From the IMG/VR virus record IMGVR_UViG_3300021440_000082, positions 1-33,017 of that record: a stretch of 33,017 bases of DNA. One strand, 5' to 3'. The notes below the pieces were generated by a model. That model made no database searches. It saw nothing but the letters and a program-made list of their open reading frames with translations, and was not told the DNA's origin. Below are positions 6,466 to 31,644 of this stretch, one piece after another. The DNA comes from a virus. The stretch's first letter is position 1; the number at the start of each line of letters is the position of its first letter. Both the position numbers and the translations under genes were made by a program.

Positions 6466-7176
6466 TTACGCGGACGCGATACCGTCGACCCAGTCTGCGG
6501 GCCTCGAGTACACCGTCTCCATTAGGGACAGCGCCACGGCGCTGATGTGTTCTCGGTCCTGCCCCGTGATCCCATAGTCGTCCCCGGTGATCACTCGCTT
6601 GCAGATCGGCAGGATGCGCTTCGCGATCGATGCGAGACCCGCGGTGTACGCTCCGACGTCCGCGGTGTAGTAGCCCGCGGCGCCGAGCTCGAGTGAGAAT
6701 CCCACCGCGTCACCGACAAACGCACGTTTCCAAGCGCGCCGGTACCGCTCGCGGCAGGAGAGGAACTCGAAATACCTGGCCGTCCCCTGCGCCGCGGTTT
6801 CGAACGCGACGAACTCTGTCCACGGGTGCGGCGGGAGGAGCACCACACGCTGCCTGGGGCCGCCCTTCCACGGCGACACGACGCAGGGACCGAGCTTCTG
6901 CGCCAGCGCGGCGGTGTTCGCGTCGAAAATCTCGTCACACTTGAAGCGTGTGAACAGGCCAGTCCAATCCTTGCTGCGTTTCTCGTTGTGAAAATTGAAT
7001 TGGTGGGCATGCTGCCCGTTGCCTGACTCAAGGCAGAGCTGCGCTCCGGTTGCCGCGAGGCACTCCGCGCTATCGGTCTCCGCGCCCATGACGATCTGGT
7101 AACCGTCATGCGCAGCGAGGAGCAGTTCCTCGACAGAGAGCGGCGTGATCTTGTCCGGAACGAAAGTAGCGGTCAA
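6466..7176 (-). CDS. Endolysin, glucosaminidase (FlgJ/LYZ2-type) domain
   Basis: This 236-residue protein cleaves peptidoglycan between N-acetylglucosamine and the next sugar in FlgJ-type glucosaminidases. The diagnostic motif AQLCLESGNG (residues 45-54) matches the AQ-x-x-LESG-x-G signature, with Glu50 as catalytic acid. It continues with an HQFNFHN segment (the usual 'NFFG/N' stretch), an FVAFETAAQGTARYFEFL segment and AAGYYTADVGAYTAG near residue 185, as in phage lysins of this group. There is no signal peptide, so release would need a holin. The start is TTG at 7176, overlapping the previous stop as TTGA, with AAAAGG upstream. The gene closes a compact lysis cassette. Confidence 0.88.
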   Translation of the reverse strand: MTATFVPDKITPLSVEELLLAAHDGYQIVMGAETDSAECLAATGAQLCLESGNGQHAHQFNFHNEKRSKDWTGLFTRFKCDEIFDANTAALAQKLGPCVVSPWKGGPRQRVVLLPPHPWTEFVAFETAAQGTARYFEFLSCRERYRRAWKRAFVGDAVGFSLELGAAGYYTADVGAYTAGLASIAKRILPICKRVITGDDYGITGQDREHISAVALSLMETVYSRPADWVDGIASA

Positions 7177-7490
7177 GGCTGTGGCCTTTTCGTTTGGGGG
7201 AGCGTCGGGGGCTCGTCGTCGAATTGCGGCAACGGAAGCGTCGCCGGGATCGTCGGGGTCGGGGTGTAGGAGCGCGGCGGAGGCACTACCGGAGTGCGCT
7301 CGGGATCCGTCTCTTTCACTTCGCGCAGGAGAACATTCAGATCCGTGATCACGTCACCGAGCTGCAGCGCTGCGCGATGCACGGAGAGCCCCAGCGTCGC
7401 ACATGCCGCGACCGCATCACTGACGGCGGCGGTTGCAAGATTGATCAAGGTCTCGAGCTCTCTTCGCGATTGCGCGCTGTCGCGGATCAT
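7173..7490 (-). CDS. Small protein of the lysis cassette, proline-rich C-terminus
   Basis: This 105-residue protein has an N-terminal helical half (residues 5-60, LINLATAAVSDAVAACATLG, then LQLGDVITDLNVLLREVKE). The C-terminal tail, about residues 67-105, is Pro/Thr-rich. It has no clear membrane helix or lipobox, so it is not an obvious spanin or holin. Its stop overlaps the TTG of the endolysin, and its start lies inside the end of the membrane protein 7417-7623, so it is translationally embedded in the lysis cassette. It may regulate or chaperone lysis, but the function is unknown. Confidence 0.6.
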   Translation of the reverse strand: MIRDSAQSRRELETLINLATAAVSDAVAACATLGLSVHRAALQLGDVITDLNVLLREVKETDPERTPVVPPPRSYTPTPTIPATLPLPQFDDEPPTLPQTKRPQP

Positions 7491-7623
7491 CGGTCACCCA
7501 CCCCACCGAAAGCATGAAGGCCCCTGGGATCCACAGCGGTGAGGAGGCGGCCAGGAGCAAAACCCCACTCCAGGTCACCGCTGTGGACCCCAACAGGGCG
7601 AGTCGTTTACGGAGCGCCAGCAT
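7417..7623 (-). CDS. Small membrane protein, holin candidate
   Basis: This 68-residue protein has basic residues at the start (MLALRKRLALL). One long or two short hydrophobic segments (about 8-26 and 29-42) are followed by a strongly charged basic tail (residues 46-68). This is the size and layout of a small holin or antiholin. It overlaps the genes on both sides (74 bases with the downstream gene, 17 with the upstream one), which is common in lysis cassettes but also leaves room for a false call. The ribosome binding site is poor (GAGGG about 14 bases before ATG). Confidence 0.55.
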   Translation of the reverse strand: MLALRKRLALLGSTAVTWSGVLLLAASSPLWIPGAFMLSVGWVTDDPRQRAIAKRARDLDQSCNRRRQ

Positions 7624-8158
7624 CGGAGGAAAGCGCCCTCGCTGCGTCCTGAATTGCCTGAGCGGCGAGCGCCCCTTCTGCGAGTCGAAGCGTGACCTCG
7701 ACCTGCTCCGGGATCGGGTCGCCCGCCGCGCGAGACGCTGTCACGATGCGCGTCGCCAGCTCGAATGCCAGCGCATAGTCGCGCTCATCGATTGCCTGCT
7801 TCGCCATAGCTACGGTCGAAGGCTGAATGCCGCGGTCATCGCACCAGCCCACCACGTGAGCGAGTCCTCGACCGATCGCATCCGCCTGCGAGAGCATCGG
7901 CACCCCAGTCTTGAGCGCTGCGCACCCGGATAGGGATGCGAGTGCGGCGAGCAGAATGAGGCTCTTCGTTGCTACAGCGGAGGCGTCGATCTTCGCCGCA
8001 TTCTTCGGCTCGAGCCGGTGAGCAACGTCGGTGAAAACGCTACCCACACCGGAAAGCACCGCGATGATCACGCCCGGCGATACACCAAAGCGATCCATTA
8101 CCGCTCCGCATAGGGAGGCGACGAGCAGCTGCATCAGCATGGGCCACGATTTGAGCAT
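7607..8158 (-). CDS. Membrane protein with internal lipobox-like motif (lysis cassette)
   Basis: This 183-residue protein has three hydrophobic stretches: about 7-21 (MLMQLLVASLCGAVM), 28-43 (PGVIIAVLSGVGSVF) and 66-80. The third, preceded by Lys65 and ending LASLSGC, looks exactly like a lipoprotein signal with the lipobox cysteine at residue 79, yet it lies 65 residues inside the frame. No ATG, GTG or TTG is found just before it. The rest is helical and soluble (about 95-183). Either the first part is a holin-like membrane module fused to a lipoprotein-like module, or the third segment is simply another membrane helix. The position beside the holin candidate and endolysin implies a lysis role. 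Confidence 0.6.
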   Translation of the reverse strand: MLKSWPMLMQLLVASLCGAVMDRFGVSPGVIIAVLSGVGSVFTDVAHRLEPKNAAKIDASAVATKSLILLAALASLSGCAALKTGVPMLSQADAIGRGLAHVVGWCDDRGIQPSTVAMAKQAIDERDYALAFELATRIVTASRAAGDPIPEQVEVTLRLAEGALAAQAIQDAARALSSDAGAP

Positions 8159-8194
8159 GCGGATCGGAGTAGCAGCCGCACGTGGAATTGACCG

Positions 8195-8548
8195 TCAGAC
8201 GAACTTCGGTGGCTCGAGCAGCTCACCGTCGATCGATATCCGCAGCGAACCGAACCACCGGTTGTGAGCCACCTCTCGCAGCACCACGAGATGATCTCCG
8301 CCTTCGATTGGAGTGAAACTCACCGAGTCGGGCGCGGTGCCCGTGAACTCGCGGCGCTGGTAGCTCGCGGAGCTCGACCCCTGCACCTCTAACACCAGCG
8401 GGAGCATGACTCCCTCGGGCTTACAGCGCGTGTAGCTCACGGTCACGAGCACGGGAGCGAACGCGCGCGGTGGAGGAGACTGATCGTCGGTCGACAGATC
8501 GATCCGCCGCTCGCGGATGTAGTCCGGGGCGAGTTCGTCGAGGATCAA
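8195..8548 (-). CDS. Small beta-sandwich-like phage protein, unknown
   Basis: This 117-residue protein starts with TTG (MILDELAPDYIRERR), overlapping the previous stop as TTGA. After a short polar N-terminus it shows strand-like repeats (APVLVTVSYTRC, VMLPLVLEVQG, HLVVLREVAHN, SLRISIDGELL). This suggests a single beta-sandwich domain, as found in minor tail or fibre accessory proteins. No family is recognised. It is coupled to the upstream gene and followed by a 36-base gap before the lysis cassette. Confidence 0.6.
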   Translation of the reverse strand: MILDELAPDYIRERRIDLSTDDQSPPPRAFAPVLVTVSYTRCKPEGVMLPLVLEVQGSSSASYQRREFTGTAPDSVSFTPIEGGDHLVVLREVAHNRWFGSLRISIDGELLEPPKFV

Positions 8549-13243: not shown

Positions 13244-13567
13244 TCAATCGAGAGGACAGAACAACCCGGGTAGCCCCGGGGGCGTCGGCAGCGTCGGCAG
13301 CGTCGGCAGCGTCGGGATGCCGGGGAGGCCCGGCAATGCCGTCAGCGCTGGGACGCCAGGGAGCGCCGGGAGAGCGGGTAGCCCCGGGGGCGTCGGCAGC
13401 GTCGGCAGCGTCGGGATGCCGGGGAGGCCCGGCAATGCCGGCAGCGCTGGGACGCCAGGGAGCGCCGGGAGAGCGGGTAGCCCCGGGGGCGTCGGCAGCG
13501 TCGGCAGCGTCGGCAATGGAAACGACAACGCGATCAGCGGCAGCGGCGGGAACGCGCAGCGAGACAC
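13244..13567 (-). CDS. Proline-triplet repeat protein (Pro-x-x), unknown
   Basis: This 107-residue protein starts at a GTG that overlaps the previous stop (TAGTG) and is encoded by a 99-bp tandem repeat. Apart from a short N-terminus (MSRCAFPPLPLIALSF), proline recurs at every third residue: LPALPALPG, VPALPALPG, LPGIPTLPT, PPG. The unit of 33 residues repeats about 2.7 times, with a few differences. On the plus strand the same DNA reads as collagen-like Gly-X-Y. Minus-strand coding is preferred because the gene fits between the stop of 13567-13887 and the gp46-like start and has the operon's direction. The conformation would be polyproline-like or a rod; its place beside the spike gene hints at a baseplate or tip role. 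Function is unknown. Confidence 0.5.
   Translation of the reverse strand: MSRCAFPPLPLIALSFPLPTLPTLPTPPGLPALPALPGVPALPALPGLPGIPTLPTLPTPPGLPALPALPGVPALTALPGLPGIPTLPTLPTLPTPPGLPGLFCPLD
13268..13514. repeat. 99-bp tandem repeat, about 2.7 units
   Basis: Near-identical units begin at 13268, 13376 and 13475. The first is 9 bp longer (one extra GTCGGCAGC block), the second is 99 bp, and the third breaks off near 13514. Each 99-bp unit is itself made of 9-bp-like subrepeats and encodes 33 residues. Unit-to-unit identity is very high, which suggests recent expansion or conversion. Confidence 0.85.
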
Positions 13568-25934: not shown

Positions 25935-26648
25935 TCAGAGAGTCGGCGCGCCGCTGCGCAGGTATTGTCCGGCCTCGTGCACCTGGTCGTTGCGGCTGAG
26001 CACTTTGAACCCCGGGCGCTTGTCGCTGAGATAGGCCATAGCCTTCTCGATATCGTTGCGGCCCGGGTAAGCGTCAGCCGGGTGCGTAGAGGGGGAATGC
26101 GACGGAGCCATGAGCGGGGCCGTGGCGGAGAAATGCACGGCTCCAGTCGCCGGGCTGCCGAGCTGCGTCCCGTTGTGCCCCGCGACGATCGGCGTGGTGA
26201 GCAGTCGCTGCGCCGCGTTCAGCACCGGGTACTGCGCGCGCCATGCCGCGAGCCTCACCGGGTCGCCGGCGATGCCGATTCGTTCGCTCAGCAGGAGCGG
26301 CTTCAGCCGCTGCGACTGCGCATCGTCGAGTCGAAGGCTCGCGGCCACTTGCTCGACCTCCGCCTCGGCGTCCTTCTTGTCGTACGCGCCCAGGCGCTCG
26401 TTCGCGGCATTCAGAGCACCGAGGTACTCCTCCGCCTTCTTCGCCTTCTCGACGAGCGTTGCCGCATCCGTCAGGAGCGACTGGGTATCGCTCGAGCCGA
26501 AGAGCGCGAGCAGCTTGTCGAGTGCGTCTCCCTGCGCCGCGGACGCTTCCGCGCTCGCGAGGATCTGCGCGTCCGTCGCCCCATCGCGGAGCTTGAGGAT
26601 CTTGCAGAGGGCCGACATGAGGGTGGGGCTGATGTTCGCGACGGACAT
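25935..26648 (-). CDS. Scaffold protein from internal start (Mu Z-like, nested in I)
   Basis: An in-frame ATG at 26648 (MSVANISPTLMSALCK) is preceded by GGAGA seven bases upstream, a good ribosome binding site inside the coding region. Translation from here gives 237 residues: helices rich in Ala/Glu/Lys (ATLVEKAKKAEEYLGALNA) and a Gly/Pro/Ser-rich end. In Mu the scaffold Z is made in the same way from the end of the I gene. The protein should fill the prohead and be removed by the protease. Translation start is inferred from sequence. Confidence 0.6.
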   Translation of the reverse strand: MSVANISPTLMSALCKILKLRDGATDAQILASAEASAAQGDALDKLLALFGSSDTQSLLTDAATLVEKAKKAEEYLGALNAANERLGAYDKKDAEAEVEQVAASLRLDDAQSQRLKPLLLSERIGIAGDPVRLAAWRAQYPVLNAAQRLLTTPIVAGHNGTQLGSPATGAVHFSATAPLMAPSHSPSTHPADAYPGRNDIEKAMAYLSDKRPGFKVLSRNDQVHEAGQYLRSGAPTL

Positions 26649-27605
26649 GTTTTGGTCTCCGGTGGCCGGTTGGCCCTGCGGTTGAACGAGTGACAGCGCC
26701 GAAAGAATCTGACCCCCGGCGGCAATGATTTCGTCGAGCGTGGCGAGTGCGGGCACGCCGAGCAGATCGCGCAGGCAGCTCGCGATGCACTCGGCGCGGT
26801 CGTAGAGTTCGTCCTCTTCGCCTGCGGGCTGCGCGGAGAGGATCGTGCGGAGCCGCTCGAACTGCGACGCGATCTCGGACACGGACGCTTCCGGCTTCAG
26901 GCCGAAGATCTGCCGCATTCCGACGATCGCCTCTTCGGGGCTCGCCGCGGTTCCGTACACCGAGACGGAGGCGTTGACCTGCCGCGCGCGCGCTGCGATG
27001 GCCATCGGCTCCATCCCCTTGATGAACGGGTGGTTGGTGAATGCGATGCTGGTGAGCAACGCGCCGATCGGCTTGGCCGTCGTCGAGTCCTGCGCGCGGG
27101 GCCAGATCGAAACGCTGGTCCACAGGTACTCGCGTTCTTTCACCTGTTGGCGCGCTCGGTTGCCCATGGTGGTGAGCGCCCAAAGCTCTTCCGTGCCCCC
27201 GTCGGAGGCCCGGAGGTCGAGGTCAAGCGCCCACGCCGGCGCCGGAGCGCCCTCCTGCGGGATCGTCCCGCTGGTGGGGTCCATCTCGCTCGCGTGCTCG
27301 TAGTCGTAGGGGATGACCGGCTTGCACCCCCAGCCGTCCGCGCCCTGCAAATACGAGGGGTTCGCGCGGAAGTTTGCGACGACCTGCTCGAACGTGGAGC
27401 GGGTGAACTCGACGCCATCCGGATGGTCGGGGTGTCCCATCCACTTTCCAGCGCGGGCGATCTGCACCCACACCGGCTTGGGCTCGGCATCCGGCTGGAC
27501 GTCGGAAAGCTTCAGCTCGCCTCGCAGGTTCGCGCTCCCGAAGAGCGGAGCCCCGAGGAGCAGTGCCCCGAACCGAATCAGCGTCCGACTTACGAGCTTC
27601 GCCAC
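25935..27605 (-). CDS. Prohead protease/scaffold, Mu I-like
   Basis: This 556-residue protein is a capsid maturation protease with a fused C-terminal scaffold. The protease half (about 44-200) shows PVIPYDYEHASEMDP (His104), the LWALTTMGNRARQQVKEREY segment with Ser164/Ser166 in YLWTSVSIWP, and IAFTNHPFIKGMEP, matching the Mu I layout; the catalytic residues are proposed from this pattern. The second half is helical and charged (about 330-470). A nested scaffold start is at 26648. The start used is GTG at 27605, inside a 128-bp duplication; no ATG exists upstream, and the first 26 residues read like a non-conserved leader, so the true start is uncertain. Confidence 0.85.
   Translation of the reverse strand: MAKLVSRTLIRFGALLLGAPLFGSANLRGELKLSDVQPDAEPKPVWVQIARAGKWMGHPDHPDGVEFTRSTFEQVVANFRANPSYLQGADGWGCKPVIPYDYEHASEMDPTSGTIPQEGAPAPAWALDLDLRASDGGTEELWALTTMGNRARQQVKEREYLWTSVSIWPRAQDSTTAKPIGALLTSIAFTNHPFIKGMEPMAIAARARQVNASVSVYGTAASPEEAIVGMRQIFGLKPEASVSEIASQFERLRTILSAQPAGEEDELYDRAECIASCLRDLLGVPALATLDEIIAAGGQILSALSLVQPQGQPATGDQNMSVANISPTLMSALCKILKLRDGATDAQILASAEASAAQGDALDKLLALFGSSDTQSLLTDAATLVEKAKKAEEYLGALNAANERLGAYDKKDAEAEVEQVAASLRLDDAQSQRLKPLLLSERIGIAGDPVRLAAWRAQYPVLNAAQRLLTTPIVAGHNGTQLGSPATGAVHFSATAPLMAPSHSPSTHPADAYPGRNDIEKAMAYLSDKRPGFKVLSRNDQVHEAGQYLRSGAPTL
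26656..26660 (-). promoter_or_regulatory. Internal ribosome binding site for the nested scaffold
   Basis: GGAGA on the minus strand lies seven bases before the internal ATG at 26648. It is stronger than the site of the full-length gene's GTG and supports separate scaffold production. Confidence 0.5.
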
Positions 27606-27654
27606 GCGGCCCAGCTTGCGGAGCTGGGCTTGCGCTGACCCGGTGCTACGGTCG
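27527..27654. repeat. 128-bp direct repeat, copy 1 (covers start of the protease gene)
   Basis: This copy is identical to 27682-27809 except for one base (A at 27562, G at 27717). It covers the GTG start and first 26 codons of the protease gene plus 49 bases upstream, including the hairpin CCCAGCT...AGCTGGG. Its counterpart lies 155 bp away. Confidence 0.92.
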
Positions 27655-27681: not shown

Positions 27682-27809
27682 GGTTCGCGCTCCCGAAGAG
27701 CGGAGCCCCGAGGAGCGGTGCCCCGAACCGAATCAGCGTCCGACTTACGAGCTTCGCCACGCGGCCCAGCTTGCGGAGCTGGGCTTGCGCTGACCCGGTG
27801 CTACGGTCG
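27682..27809. repeat. 128-bp direct repeat, copy 2 (between F and I genes)
   Basis: The second copy overlaps the stop codon of the MuF gene and then carries the same GTG and leader codons as the protease gene. Here they run into an early stop after 56 codons (a decoy ORF, GTG at 27760 to TAA). A 27-bp spacer (27655-27681) separates it from copy 1. On the plus strand the copy also contains most of a 44-codon ORF (27659-27793, MWLFTAFGVRAPEERSPEER...). Confidence 0.92.
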
Positions 27810-29738
27810 GGGCGGCCAGGCGGCGGGCTTCGTGATCTCCGTCAGCTTGCCCTCAAGGAAGCTCGTCCGCGCTTCGAGCATGCCGATCATGCGCTCGCGG
27901 TCGAACGCCGTGAGGAACTTCCCCTCTGCCTCGACGAACTTGCGCCACCCACCGACGTCCCTCCGGAGTTCGATGATGCGCTTGATGCCACGGATCGCAG
28001 CGTCGCCCAGCTCTTCGGCGGATGTGACGCTGGCGGCCTCAGCGAGGCGCGCGTACCCGGGGTTGACGCTCGGGTCGAAGAAGGACTCCCACTCGGTGAC
28101 GTTGCCGAGTGCCTCGACCGGTTTGCGCCCCGCGTTCGCGCGCGAGAGGAGCGCTCCGCCGTTGTCGATGCGGAAGAGCTTGCCGCGAGCGTCGACGACG
28201 ATGTTTTCCAGCCCGAGGCCGGCCGCGTCCCAGTTGGCGGTGAGCACGTCCGCTGCGAATCCCTCGAGCGCCTTCTTCGCGAGTCCTCGAGTGAGTCCCT
28301 TGTCGGCGAGCGTCTTCGCTTTCGGAATGAGCTCACTCGCGTAGGCGAGCTTCCCGTCGCGCACGAAGGTGACGCTCTTCACAGTGCCGAGACCGAGCTT
28401 CGCGTAGATCTTGTTGGCGATGTGCTCGCCGGCCGCCTGCGCAGGGTCGTCGTAGAACTTGACGTAGCGCTTCTTGCCGTCCAGTCCTTCATACACCCCG
28501 CCCGGGTTGCTGCCGGTTGCATCGGAGATCTTCTTCGCGAGAACGTTCTCCGCGCTCGCGACCGCTGGCTTGGGCGTCGGTGGAGGGGGAGGCAACACCG
28601 CGGGCGGCGGTGGAGGGGGAGGCTTCGGCCCCTCGAAGGGTATCGACACGGGCAGAGCACCAGGGCCCACCTGCGGGGCGGCCGGCGGGGGCGGAGCGGG
28701 CGGCGCCTGTTGCGCGCTGTCGTTCGCAGGCTTCGCCGGCGGCGTCTGCAGCGACGGCGGTACCGTCGGCAGCACCCGCGTGCCCGAGTCGAAGTCCGGA
28801 TCCGGGAGCCCCTGCGGCTCGGGACCGATCGGCGCCTTGTGCTGGTCGATCCAGCGCTGCGAGCGCGCGACGACGCGGCACCGGCAGTTGTACCCGAACG
28901 GCGGATAGGCGCGCTTCCAGAACGGGTGATTCGCCGGGAGGATCACACCGTGCGCTCGCTTGTGCGCGGGGCGAGCTCTCGAGTCGTCGACGCCACGGAT
29001 CTGCCAGTACGGCATGAGCGCGACGACGGCCGGCGACGTCATCTGCGCGTGCCGGCCCGTGGCATACGCGCTCGCGACGTTCGTTCTGTAGATCGTCTCG
29101 ACGTGGCTCGGATTCGACGGCGTCCAGCCCGCGGACTCGAGGCGCTCCCGGACGAACTTCTCGAACTCGCGCAGGTTCGGGCCCTCGTAGACCCACCCCG
29201 TCTCGGGATCCTTCTGCGTCCGCCCCTGGCTGCCCTGCAGCTGACGAATGAGCTCGGCGTGTGCCGTGTCGAGTAGTTCCTGCTTTGCGAGCCCGGCGAC
29301 CGTGAAGGCCTTCCGTTTCGCCTCGCGCTCGAGCAGGTCGAAGGCCGCCCGGGGCATCACCTCGCGCTTGCGGAACTCCGCAATCGCTTCGGCGAAGGGG
29401 AGGTGACCGAACGCTCCAGCCGTGTCCGTTCCGGTCGCCGCGAACTTCGCGATCTCGACCTCGTCCTCGTGCTGGACCTCCCAATCCACGTCCAGGATGC
29501 CGAGCATCAGGCTGCGTAGGATCTGCTCCTCGACGACCTTCGCGAAGGCGTGCGTGTCGAAGCGCTCACCCGCCGCAGCGATGGCCCCGCGGATCCCGGC
29601 CTCCGTGTCGCGGCCCGAGCATGCGTCCGCAATCTGCTGCGCCCACCGCTTGGTAATCTCGGCGCCGCTCGCGACGCCAGCGTCGACCAGGTGCTCGGGG
29701 GAGCCGTTCACCGTCGCGGGCTGTGCCGCGCAACACAC
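27801..29738 (-). CDS. MuF head morphogenesis protein fused to a HipA/PI3K-like kinase domain
   Basis: This 645-residue protein has three parts. Residues 1-300 are a Mu F/SPP1 gp7-like minor head protein: a helical N-half, then RTNVASAYATGRHAQM, a VDDSRARPAHKRAHG segment and an FGYNCRCRVVARSQ end typical of MuF. Residues 325-395 form a Pro/Ala linker with poly-Pro. Residues 400-560 resemble a kinase of the HipA/PI3K-like fold: Gly-rich strand GGVYEGLDG, Lys427 in RYVKFYDD, a helix with GEHIANKIYAKLGLG, then ANWDAAGLGLENIVVD (Asp504, Asn512) and FRIDNGGALL (Asp525). Further helices reach the end. MuF proteins enter the head, so the kinase would be carried in the virion and may be injected. The start is GTG at 29738; no earlier usual start is in frame. 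Substrate unknown. Confidence 0.85.
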   Translation of the reverse strand: MCCAAQPATVNGSPEHLVDAGVASGAEITKRWAQQIADACSGRDTEAGIRGAIAAAGERFDTHAFAKVVEEQILRSLMLGILDVDWEVQHEDEVEIAKFAATGTDTAGAFGHLPFAEAIAEFRKREVMPRAAFDLLEREAKRKAFTVAGLAKQELLDTAHAELIRQLQGSQGRTQKDPETGWVYEGPNLREFEKFVRERLESAGWTPSNPSHVETIYRTNVASAYATGRHAQMTSPAVVALMPYWQIRGVDDSRARPAHKRAHGVILPANHPFWKRAYPPFGYNCRCRVVARSQRWIDQHKAPIGPEPQGLPDPDFDSGTRVLPTVPPSLQTPPAKPANDSAQQAPPAPPPPAAPQVGPGALPVSIPFEGPKPPPPPPPAVLPPPPPTPKPAVASAENVLAKKISDATGSNPGGVYEGLDGKKRYVKFYDDPAQAAGEHIANKIYAKLGLGTVKSVTFVRDGKLAYASELIPKAKTLADKGLTRGLAKKALEGFAADVLTANWDAAGLGLENIVVDARGKLFRIDNGGALLSRANAGRKPVEALGNVTEWESFFDPSVNPGYARLAEAASVTSAEELGDAAIRGIKRIIELRRDVGGWRKFVEAEGKFLTAFDRERMIGMLEARTSFLEGKLTEITKPAAWPPRP

Positions 29739-29773: not shown

Positions 29774-31321
29774 CTAGGAACTGCCCGAACTCCTCGAGAG
29801 CAAGTCGAGCAGTCTTGCGGCCCTCGCCAAGACTAAAGGGTCGTGGGCGCCACCACGGAGCGTCGACGGATCGCCGGTGGCCTGGCCGCCCTGGCCCAGC
29901 GGAGAGCCGCCCCCACCGCCGCTTGAGTTATCACTGGGTGAGGGACTTCCCGGATCTTGCGCATTGGGTGAGGGACTTCCGGGGAGCTCTGGGGCCGCCT
30001 GCGGCGGCTGCTTGATGACGCGATCGGTAGGCCCCGGCTTCGTCCACCCGGTGCGCTCGTATACCTCGTCCTCGACGAGCGGGAGGCCGAGCGCGAGCGT
30101 CTTCGTTGCGACGTCGGCCTCCACGCCGCGGTTGCGCGGGAGCTCGTAGCGGATCTCGATGCGCGGGCAGTGGTCTAGGTACTCCGGGCCCTCGTTCAGT
30201 ACGATGATGTCTGCGGCGAGTTGCTCGGTGAGCAGGTCGGAGAGGTTCCAGCCGTCGGCCTCGACGACGCTGCCCTGTTCCTCCTGCCCCACCTCGTCGC
30301 CGGTGGAACCGAGCGCGCCCGGCTTCGCGTCGGTGGTTCGCGTGGTGCCGAGTACCAGCTTCGAGATCTGATCATCCGCGTCCATCCCTGCGTCGCGGTG
30401 GTTCTGCCCGCTGCGGTCACCGGGAACGCTCGTCTCGACTTTCACGCCGGGGGGCATGACAGCGGTGGAGCTCCCGCCCATGCCGTCGATGACCTCGCCG
30501 GCCCTGTCGAGAGCGTCGGGCTGCACCGCCGGGTTGTCCGTGTAGGCGATGCGCCACGGCTTCCCGAACACCTCGAGCAGCACCATGCGCTCACGCCAGC
30601 TGAAGCGCTTGTGAAAGCTCCAGTACAGGCAGCGCGGCCCGAAGCCCTCGCGCTCCGGCGTCTCGTTGAACAACTGCGGAGTGAAGCAGATGAACTTCAG
30701 CGGCACTTCGGCGAGGTCCAGGCCAACCGGGGAGAACCCCGTGCCGTCGAAGACCCCGTCTCTGACCCGTAACTCACGTTGCGGACCGAAGGACAATCGC
30801 CGCGGCTGGATCCAGTTGAGTCTGTCGACGCGCCAGCGGACGTTACCCGCGGGGTTCTCCCGCCATACCTTCTCGAGCGCTGCTCGGCCGTGGAGATGGC
30901 CCCAGTTCAGCCGGAGAATCGACTGTTTCAGGTTCGGGATCCACGCGAGCTGCTGACGTACCATGTCCGCGTAGCGAGTCGCGCGGGGCTCGTCGATCCC
31001 GTCGCCCTTCGCGGGCACCACGGTGATCTTTGCGGATGCGAGAGACCGGAACCGCTTGCCTGTCGCCCCAGCATAATGCGTGTCGATGAACAGCGTCTCA
31101 TTGCTGAGGTCTGTCAGGTCCCGCATGAACCCGAGATTTGCGGATACGAGTACCTGCTCGATTGTTGCCGGTGTGAGCGCGCGACCGAAGTACCGGCGGT
31201 ACTGCTCCATCTCCGGCACGCCATTGAGCATCGTGGCCTGAAGATCGTCACGGAACTCTGAGGATCTGAACCACCAGCGGCCGTCGCCCGTTCGATAGCC
31301 CTGGACTCTGCGCGACGACAT
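29774..31321 (-). CDS. Portal protein, Mu gp29-like (DUF935 type)
   Basis: The ATG at 31321 overlaps the previous stop (TGATG), giving 515 residues; a GTG at 31345 would add eight. Portal dodecamers form the DNA gate of the head. The N-terminal half has the usual pattern (YRRYFGRALTPATIEQVLVS, then SLASAKITVVPAKGDG, RLNWGHLHGRAALEKVWRE), and the middle has GFGPRCLYWSFHKRFSWRER. The C-terminal 70 residues are a Pro/Ser/Gly-rich tail with a 16-bp direct repeat at DNA level (29935-29950 and 29965-29980, encoding GSPSP). It precedes the MuF gene as in Mu. Confidence 0.88.
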   Translation of the reverse strand: MSSRRVQGYRTGDGRWWFRSSEFRDDLQATMLNGVPEMEQYRRYFGRALTPATIEQVLVSANLGFMRDLTDLSNETLFIDTHYAGATGKRFRSLASAKITVVPAKGDGIDEPRATRYADMVRQQLAWIPNLKQSILRLNWGHLHGRAALEKVWRENPAGNVRWRVDRLNWIQPRRLSFGPQRELRVRDGVFDGTGFSPVGLDLAEVPLKFICFTPQLFNETPEREGFGPRCLYWSFHKRFSWRERMVLLEVFGKPWRIAYTDNPAVQPDALDRAGEVIDGMGGSSTAVMPPGVKVETSVPGDRSGQNHRDAGMDADDQISKLVLGTTRTTDAKPGALGSTGDEVGQEEQGSVVEADGWNLSDLLTEQLAADIIVLNEGPEYLDHCPRIEIRYELPRNRGVEADVATKTLALGLPLVEDEVYERTGWTKPGPTDRVIKQPPQAAPELPGSPSPNAQDPGSPSPSDNSSGGGGGSPLGQGGQATGDPSTLRGGAHDPLVLARAARLLDLLSRSSGSS

Positions 31322-31644
31322 CAGCGCTGCTTCTGCCACGGCCACCGCAACCCTGACCGGACGCGCGGGGGCTCAGGGGGCACCAGGGTGGCCTGCCTCT
31401 CGAGCTCCGCCGCTTGCCGATCGAGATCTGACGCAAGCGCCTCAACCTGTGTGCACCAGGTCTCCGTCACGGACTCTACGAGAGCGGCCCTAAGGCGTGC
31501 CCGGAATCCCGCCGGTTGCGCTCTCGCAGTAGCCGCGACGCCGCGCAGATGCGCGGCCAGAGCGCGTGCGGCATGGACCTGCCCAGCGATCCAGCCGGCG
31601 CGGTAGTCAGGCGTTCGAGCTTCTTGCACGCCGCGAGCTTCCAC
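31321..31644 (-). CDS. Small helical protein upstream of the portal, unknown
   Basis: This 107-residue protein starts with GTG at 31644 (or a second GTG fifteen bases later). It is almost entirely helical, Ala/Arg/Leu-rich (GWIAGQVHAARALAAHLRG, RLRAALVESVTETWCTQVEA), and ends in a basic Trp-Pro-Trp tail. It may interact with DNA or the terminase/portal, but no family is recognised. It is coupled to the portal by TGATG. The 117 bases upstream carry a palindrome and no gene. Confidence 0.6.
   Translation of the reverse strand: MEARGVQEARTPDYRAGWIAGQVHAARALAAHLRGVAATARAQPAGFRARLRAALVESVTETWCTQVEALASDLDRQAAELERQATLVPPEPPRVRSGLRWPWQKQR

Follow-up and report, generated by a model that had tools for sequence, protein, structure and literature searches.

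A MuF minor head protein fused to a HipA/CtkA-like kinase domain in a Mu-like phage: a candidate virion-packaged effector

Why should a protein of the phage head end in a domain with the motifs of a kinase? The question is raised by one gene, hereafter the MuF-kinase gene (Table 1), of the virus record IMGVR_UViG_3300021440_000082, of which a stretch of 33,017 nucleotides was analysed (the window; positions 1 to 33,017 of the record). A first-pass annotation, made from the sequence alone, had read the product as a MuF minor head protein carrying a kinase that is packaged and injected to modify a host target early in infection or to block competing phages. The answer that we favour, and consider fairly probable, is that the virion carries the protein as a kinase effector, which is held close to the portal and enters the host along with the DNA.

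The head-protein part of that proposal was confirmed. The window protein scored 63.6 bits with PF04233, for which the curated cut-off is 29.6; in the PHROGs scan phrog_220 ('minor head protein and DNA pilot') matched residues 32–304 (E = 3.9e-50), and a tblastn search with the MuF part matched 272 annotated phages, phage Mu included. The linker that follows is proline-rich as claimed, and is longer than the 70 residues first given (82 residues, 33 of them prolines); likewise, a separate C-terminal domain is present, its size being ~245 residues (about 393–640) instead of about 160. The Gly-rich loop, Lys427 in its YVKFY context, NWD, Asn512 and RIDNGG with Asp525 were all found at the positions where they had been placed. 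The protein terminates with the kinase domain and represents a kinase-only version, with no ADP-ribosyltransferase. Its frame stays open upstream to 29927 (708 amino acids) and the start codon could therefore lie upstream of 29738.

That the C-terminal domain adopts a kinase fold is well supported by structure prediction. The AlphaFold2 model, built on a 102-row alignment from which homologues from the Pseudomonas syringae group and Legionella were excluded, is a confident one (predicted local distance difference test score 96.9, predicted template modelling score 0.93) and displays two lobes with the motif residues in canonical positions, the helical C-lobe being modelled through residue 244 of 253. 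When the model was compared with the PDB using Foldseek, 171 chains matched at E ≤ 0.001, and all the matches listed (50 of the 171) are kinases or kinase complexes. The top seven are chains of CtkA (JHP0940), a HipA-like Ser/Thr kinase of Helicobacter pylori (PDB 3akj/3akk/3akl), which is the best structural match (best E = 9.4e-7, template modelling score up to 0.63); protein kinases, RIO, PI3K (PI3KC3) and PI4K come next, and the choline kinase LicA was also returned. The HipA/PI3K-like fold that had been suggested is thus supported. In the model, Lys427 lies on the third strand and Glu438 in the following helix, Asp504 and Asn512 are in the loop preceding the next strand, and Asp525 is immediately past the following strand; the modelled order of beta3 lysine, helix-C glutamate, catalytic aspartate, asparagine and DxGG is the kinase arrangement. 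The secondary-structure positions of Lys427, Glu438, Asp504, Asn512 and Asp525 fit, and these residues are expected to come together in one ATP cleft.

Conservation of these motifs was assessed in 120 non-redundant members of the kinase family and is far beyond chance; the predicted catalytic residues are near-invariant, which bears out the kinase order of motifs first noticed (counts in Table 1), and Arg533 is invariant as well (120/120). The count for Asp504 is partly biased and weighs less, because NWD was among the scan patterns; the residue is also kept in all the inspected tblastn matches that were obtained without any pattern. HipA and HipT autophosphorylate a serine beside the Gly-rich loop (PMC8262856) and, by analogy, the conservation of Ser410 suggests possible self-regulation by autophosphorylation.

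Links to named kinase families are much fainter at the sequence level and point mainly to HipA. Single-sequence scans of the domain against Pfam, NCBIfam and PHROGs gave no match and PADLOC gave nothing credible; none of these libraries was found to hold a model covering the family. Pfam HipA_2 and HipA_C were each weakly matched by 15 of 102 members (best E = 0.0012 and 0.0069, respectively), the next best Pfam family by 2 and APH by a single one; the curated cut-off of the HipA family (PF07804/PF20613) was not reached, the window domain itself being without a match. Profile–profile comparison of the kinase family with 11 HipA proteins gave E = 1.4e-4 (probability 52), with the ATP lysine and the helix-C glutamate aligned, against E = 0.35 for a MuF control. 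CtkA was the sole clear protein kinase among weak profile matches in the PDB. Two other PDB matches were discarded: TdpB, found with the single sequence at E = 0.89, was dismissed as chance, and an S-layer beta-propeller (profile E = 0.001–0.003) was rejected because only the N-terminal GSNPxG...dGxxxYV segment aligned, with repeats within the propeller.

Table 1. Position of the MuF-kinase gene, its domains and predicted functional residues, and the adjoining head genes in the window
Feature	Position	Strand	Evidence
MuF-kinase fusion gene	27801..29738	minus	645 amino acids, GTG start
MuF domain PF04233, residues 184-289; Mu gpF-type minor head protein	28872..29189	minus	Pfam E 3.4e-17
Proline-rich linker, residues 311-392	28563..28808	minus	33 prolines / 82 residues
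C-terminal HipA/CtkA-like kinase domain (predicted), residues 393-645	27804..28562	minus	AlphaFold2, Foldseek CtkA, alignment, 120-row census
Gly-rich loop TGSNPGG	residues about 408-414	minus	sequence
Ser410 in Gly-rich loop (GSNPGG), candidate autophosphorylation site	28509..28511	minus	117/120; HipA analogy
Lys427, predicted ATP-binding lysine, strand beta3 (YVKFY)	28458..28460	minus	120/120 relatives; strand = model residues 31-36
Glu438, helix-C glutamate, predicted salt-bridge partner of Lys427	28425..28427	minus	119/120; model helix 40-55
Asp504, predicted catalytic aspartate (NWD, 502-504)	28227..28229	minus	120/120, partly biased
Asn512, predicted metal-binding asparagine	28203..28205	minus	120/120
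Asp525, predicted metal-binding aspartate (RIDNGG, DFG-like)	28164..28166	minus	120/120
Mu-type portal protein, directly upstream of MuF-kinase gene	29774..31345	minus	Portal_Mu E 3.6e-47
Mu-type head maturation protease, downstream of MuF-kinase gene	25935..27605	minus	Mu-like_Pro E 5.9e-17; phrog_328

The kinase family is large and widespread. With the window domain as the query, searches found 27 viral loci and, separately, 19 annotated phage records. A profile of these first relatives, used with a single degenerate pattern, recovered 478 relatives from viral contigs; bacterial genomes yielded 57 loci. MuF is fused in 23 of the 120 kinase proteins, and in 51 of the 120 the kinase is followed by an ADP-ribosyltransferase within one protein. 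Pfam analysis of 44 whole kinase proteins gave MuF in 20, ADPrib_exo_Tox in 14, ART in 8, NUDIX in 5 and a fused Portal_Mu in 1. Viewed from the other side, the 80 best MuF relatives include just one with the kinase. Relatives with an intact MuF do carry it. A single-sequence scan for close MuF relatives gave nothing beyond a second contig of the same phage (L097/L169), which is identical across the stretch compared. On a quick tree of the kinase domains, weakly supported in places, the presence of MuF changes at least 17 times and that of the ADP-ribosyltransferase at least 22 times, where shuffled labels give means of 21 and 37, respectively. Inheritance of the MuF fusion as a block was rejected, 17 changes against 21 being close to free reassortment, and the kinase domain is a swappable module. 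The partner enzymes also occur as separate genes: Gordonia phage Mareelih has the portal gene, then that of the kinase protein, a small gene and an ADP-ribosyltransferase gene, and phages of Pseudomonas, Yersinia, Enterobacter and Morganella (L032, L029, L030 and L036) have a NUDIX gene as the second one downstream of the gene for the kinase protein. The earlier interpretation is partly supported (MuF, the kinase fold, its canonical and invariant motifs, and a kinase kept beside an intact MuF); its injection, host target and blocking of competing phages are inferences, and it had overlooked both the coupling to ADP-ribosyltransferase and NUDIX and the wide spread of the module.

Several members are of interest in their own right. 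A conserved set of kinase, ADP-ribosyltransferase and NUDIX recurs across phages of four different hosts. Two neighbouring open reading frames (L014:4843-7299 and 7148-8389) both match the kinase profile, the second being divergent (E = 1e-7), and may form a tandem pair. A 1,311-residue frame on a gammaproteobacterial chromosome, presumably in a prophage (L041:5391-9323), joins Mu portal, MuF, kinase and ADP-ribosyltransferase. On the Streptomyces plasmid NZ_CP108366 the kinase forms the end of an open frame of 1,891 residues (L039:3-5675) that is missing from the plasmid's gene table, with similar matches on three further Streptomyces plasmids, and a 4,517-residue open frame in a phage contig (L148:2931-16481), with the kinase mid-protein, is among the largest polyvalent-type proteins met.

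Packaging of the MuF-kinase protein in the virion is supported indirectly, through its homology to virion MuF proteins and through a relative annotated as part of a particle. The MuF protein gp7 of SPP1 binds the portal and is present in 1–2 copies per capsid, and the proteome of phage StB12 was found to contain a MuF toxin (PMC5576092). The relative, from Yersinia phage fHe-Yen8-01, is a 2,155-residue open frame with the kinase at residues 1577–1810 and an ADP-ribosyltransferase at 2044–2126, and is annotated 'phage particle associated protein'. By our own count this flag is borne by 52 of the 136 genes of the record, among them portal, protease, major head, sheath, endolysin, baseplate and tail fibre genes, and is not given to the helicase, the SSB gene and most small genes; it reads like a proteomics list.

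The surroundings of the gene are those of a head-gene cluster. Beyond the head protease, Pfam and PHROGs scans identified genes for the major head protein, sheath, tape measure and baseplate, and the source phage is a Mu-like, contractile-tailed one. The two copies of a 128-nt direct repeat (27527-27654 and 27682-27809; 99% identical, 155 bases apart) run across the MuF-kinase stop codon and the beginning of the protease gene; for this repeat no Rfam match, no tRNA and no fold signal (z = −0.4 and −0.2) were found. Elsewhere in the window, a GC-rich repetitive stretch with a 9-base step (13260-13502) reads on the plus strand as collagen-like Gly-X-Y; this reading opposes the strand of the structural genes and the coding strand is ambiguous.

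Under the reading that we favour, the protein would be brought to the portal, within the head, by its MuF domain, with the proline-rich linker as a tether for the kinase. The protein would enter the host together with the first DNA, and the kinase, which we infer to be catalytically active, would transfer phosphate from ATP to one or a few proteins of the host before phage gene expression, in a mode resembling that of T4 Alt with a different chemistry. Because in about half of the family an ADP-ribosyltransferase either follows the kinase in one polypeptide or is encoded nearby, the kinase is probably part of a set of injected protein-modifying enzymes.

A number of points weigh against this packaged-effector reading. 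The template modelling score to CtkA is only ~0.6, and HipA structures are absent among the Foldseek matches listed (50 of 171). The fHe-Yen8-01 relative is a large protein with an ADP-ribosyltransferase and no detected MuF; the source paper for its particle flags was not found in the literature searched, and contamination is possible since a primase and two methyltransferases are flagged too. Finally, a role in virion assembly would give an identical sequence signature. Such a role, in which the kinase would act on the portal, the scaffold, other head proteins or itself and would later be a structural passenger, agrees with the location of the gene within the head-assembly cluster, between portal and protease, and late expression of a head cluster has been used as an argument against an early role for the HipA-like kinase of 'Gratiaviridae' phages (PMC8008677). 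We nevertheless consider it unlikely: the module occurs in very different proteins and phages with ADP-ribosyltransferases and NUDIX, which fits host modification better, and 79 of the 80 best MuF relatives lack the kinase.

A polymorphic toxin, with the kinase inhibiting the growth of competing bacteria or phages and an immunity gene protecting from it, is a slightly weaker contender. Temperate phages do have MuF toxins with variable C-terminal domains (PMC5576092), HipA kinases act as toxins (PMC8262856) and an enzymatic C-terminal extension is what this MuF protein carries; on the other hand, the kinase domain is also found in large phage proteins without MuF. No antitoxin gene was found adjoining the kinase, the flanking genes being those for the portal and the head protease, and no small immunity open reading frame was found downstream, where a 195-nt repeat-bearing gap precedes the protease gene.

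Regulation in cis, whereby the domain would phosphorylate or gate a neighbouring ADP-ribosyltransferase and would here be left over after loss of its partner, appears improbable. The frequent fusion of the two domains and their proximity as separate genes in Mareelih are what it would predict, but the partner is undetected in the protein for half of the family, and every catalytic residue is kept in the window's kinase. No remnant of an ADP-ribosyltransferase was detected after the MuF-kinase gene; none was detected in the window, in a scan in which no control genome gave a signal, or in a 45.9-kb contig of the same phage; divergent ones could escape the profiles used in these searches. That the domain is instead a kinase of small molecules or lipids, or uses the kinase fold to transfer AMP or another group, is very improbable in spite of PI3K/PI4K and LicA among the structural matches and the single member matching APH, given that the best fold match, CtkA, is a protein kinase and that the sequence links lead to HipA kinases.

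Fusion of MuF to enzymes is already known (PMC3482391, PMC5512222, PMC5576092), and it is the use of a HipA/CtkA-like kinase family in the role of a MuF effector that appears to be undescribed; no description of the family as a virion effector was found in the literature searched, which lacked most subscription papers and all preprints, and one may exist elsewhere. More broadly, and more tentatively, it could be that a large unnamed family of HipA/CtkA-like virion kinases, swapped among head and large particle proteins and often joined to ADP-ribosyltransferases, is a general early-infection effector that phosphorylates host proteins at DNA entry; we would put this at somewhat less than an even chance. 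If true, many virion proteins now called 'hypothetical' or 'ADP-ribosyltransferase' would be explained. A widespread family whose catalytic residues are intact and which often has an ADP-ribosyltransferase as partner lends itself to a clear biochemical test, for which the 645-residue version lacking the ADP-ribosyltransferase is a compact form for expression and assay.

Little is known of injected phage effectors that act ahead of phage gene expression, and T4 Alt is the main studied example. Alt is an ADP-ribosyltransferase that is packaged, injected and modifies host proteins early; the MuF-kinase protein would share with it early host modification by a packaged protein, and differs in its enzymatic domain. 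The kinase gp0.7 of T7 also modifies host proteins early, but it is made after infection and is not packaged. Nearer in architecture are the MuF fusion effectors and polymorphic toxins, which have the same MuF N-terminus followed by a variable enzymatic C-terminus and were proposed to be packaged and injected; the cargos described in the parts of those papers available to us are ART, nucleases, RelA/SpoT, peptidases and a zeta-type kinase, with no HipA-like kinase named among them (PMC5576092, PMC3482391, PMC5512222). The kinases of polyvalent proteins, also predicted to be delivered, have lost the C-terminal subdomain and kept a phosphotransfer histidine (PMC5512222), whereas for the window kinase a full helical C-lobe is modelled, and no such histidine is conserved and none is invariant. 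In five 'Gratiaviridae' gut phages a HipA-family kinase, for which superinfection immunity was proposed, is encoded between the portal and major capsid genes (PMC8008677); compared by description only, it is similar in being HipA-like and in its location, and differs in that the portion of the paper at hand mentions neither a MuF fusion nor a virion role. HipA and HipT themselves (PF07804, PF20613) have in common with the phage kinases the Gly-rich loop with a nearby serine, the lysine, the glutamate, the catalytic aspartate, the asparagine and the metal aspartate; the phage kinases differ in falling below the curated cut-offs, in having no antitoxin partner, in being fused to virion proteins and in the spacing from aspartate to asparagine (8 residues versus 5 in the HipA alignment). 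CtkA is likewise a kinase on mobile DNA, in its case a DNA-transfer element, and is believed to act as a secreted effector (PMC7366825). It is not a phage protein and shares ~15% identity with the window kinase; the phage family has ~3 extra residues between the catalytic aspartate and the metal-binding asparagine, and the NWD and RxDxGG signatures are its own.
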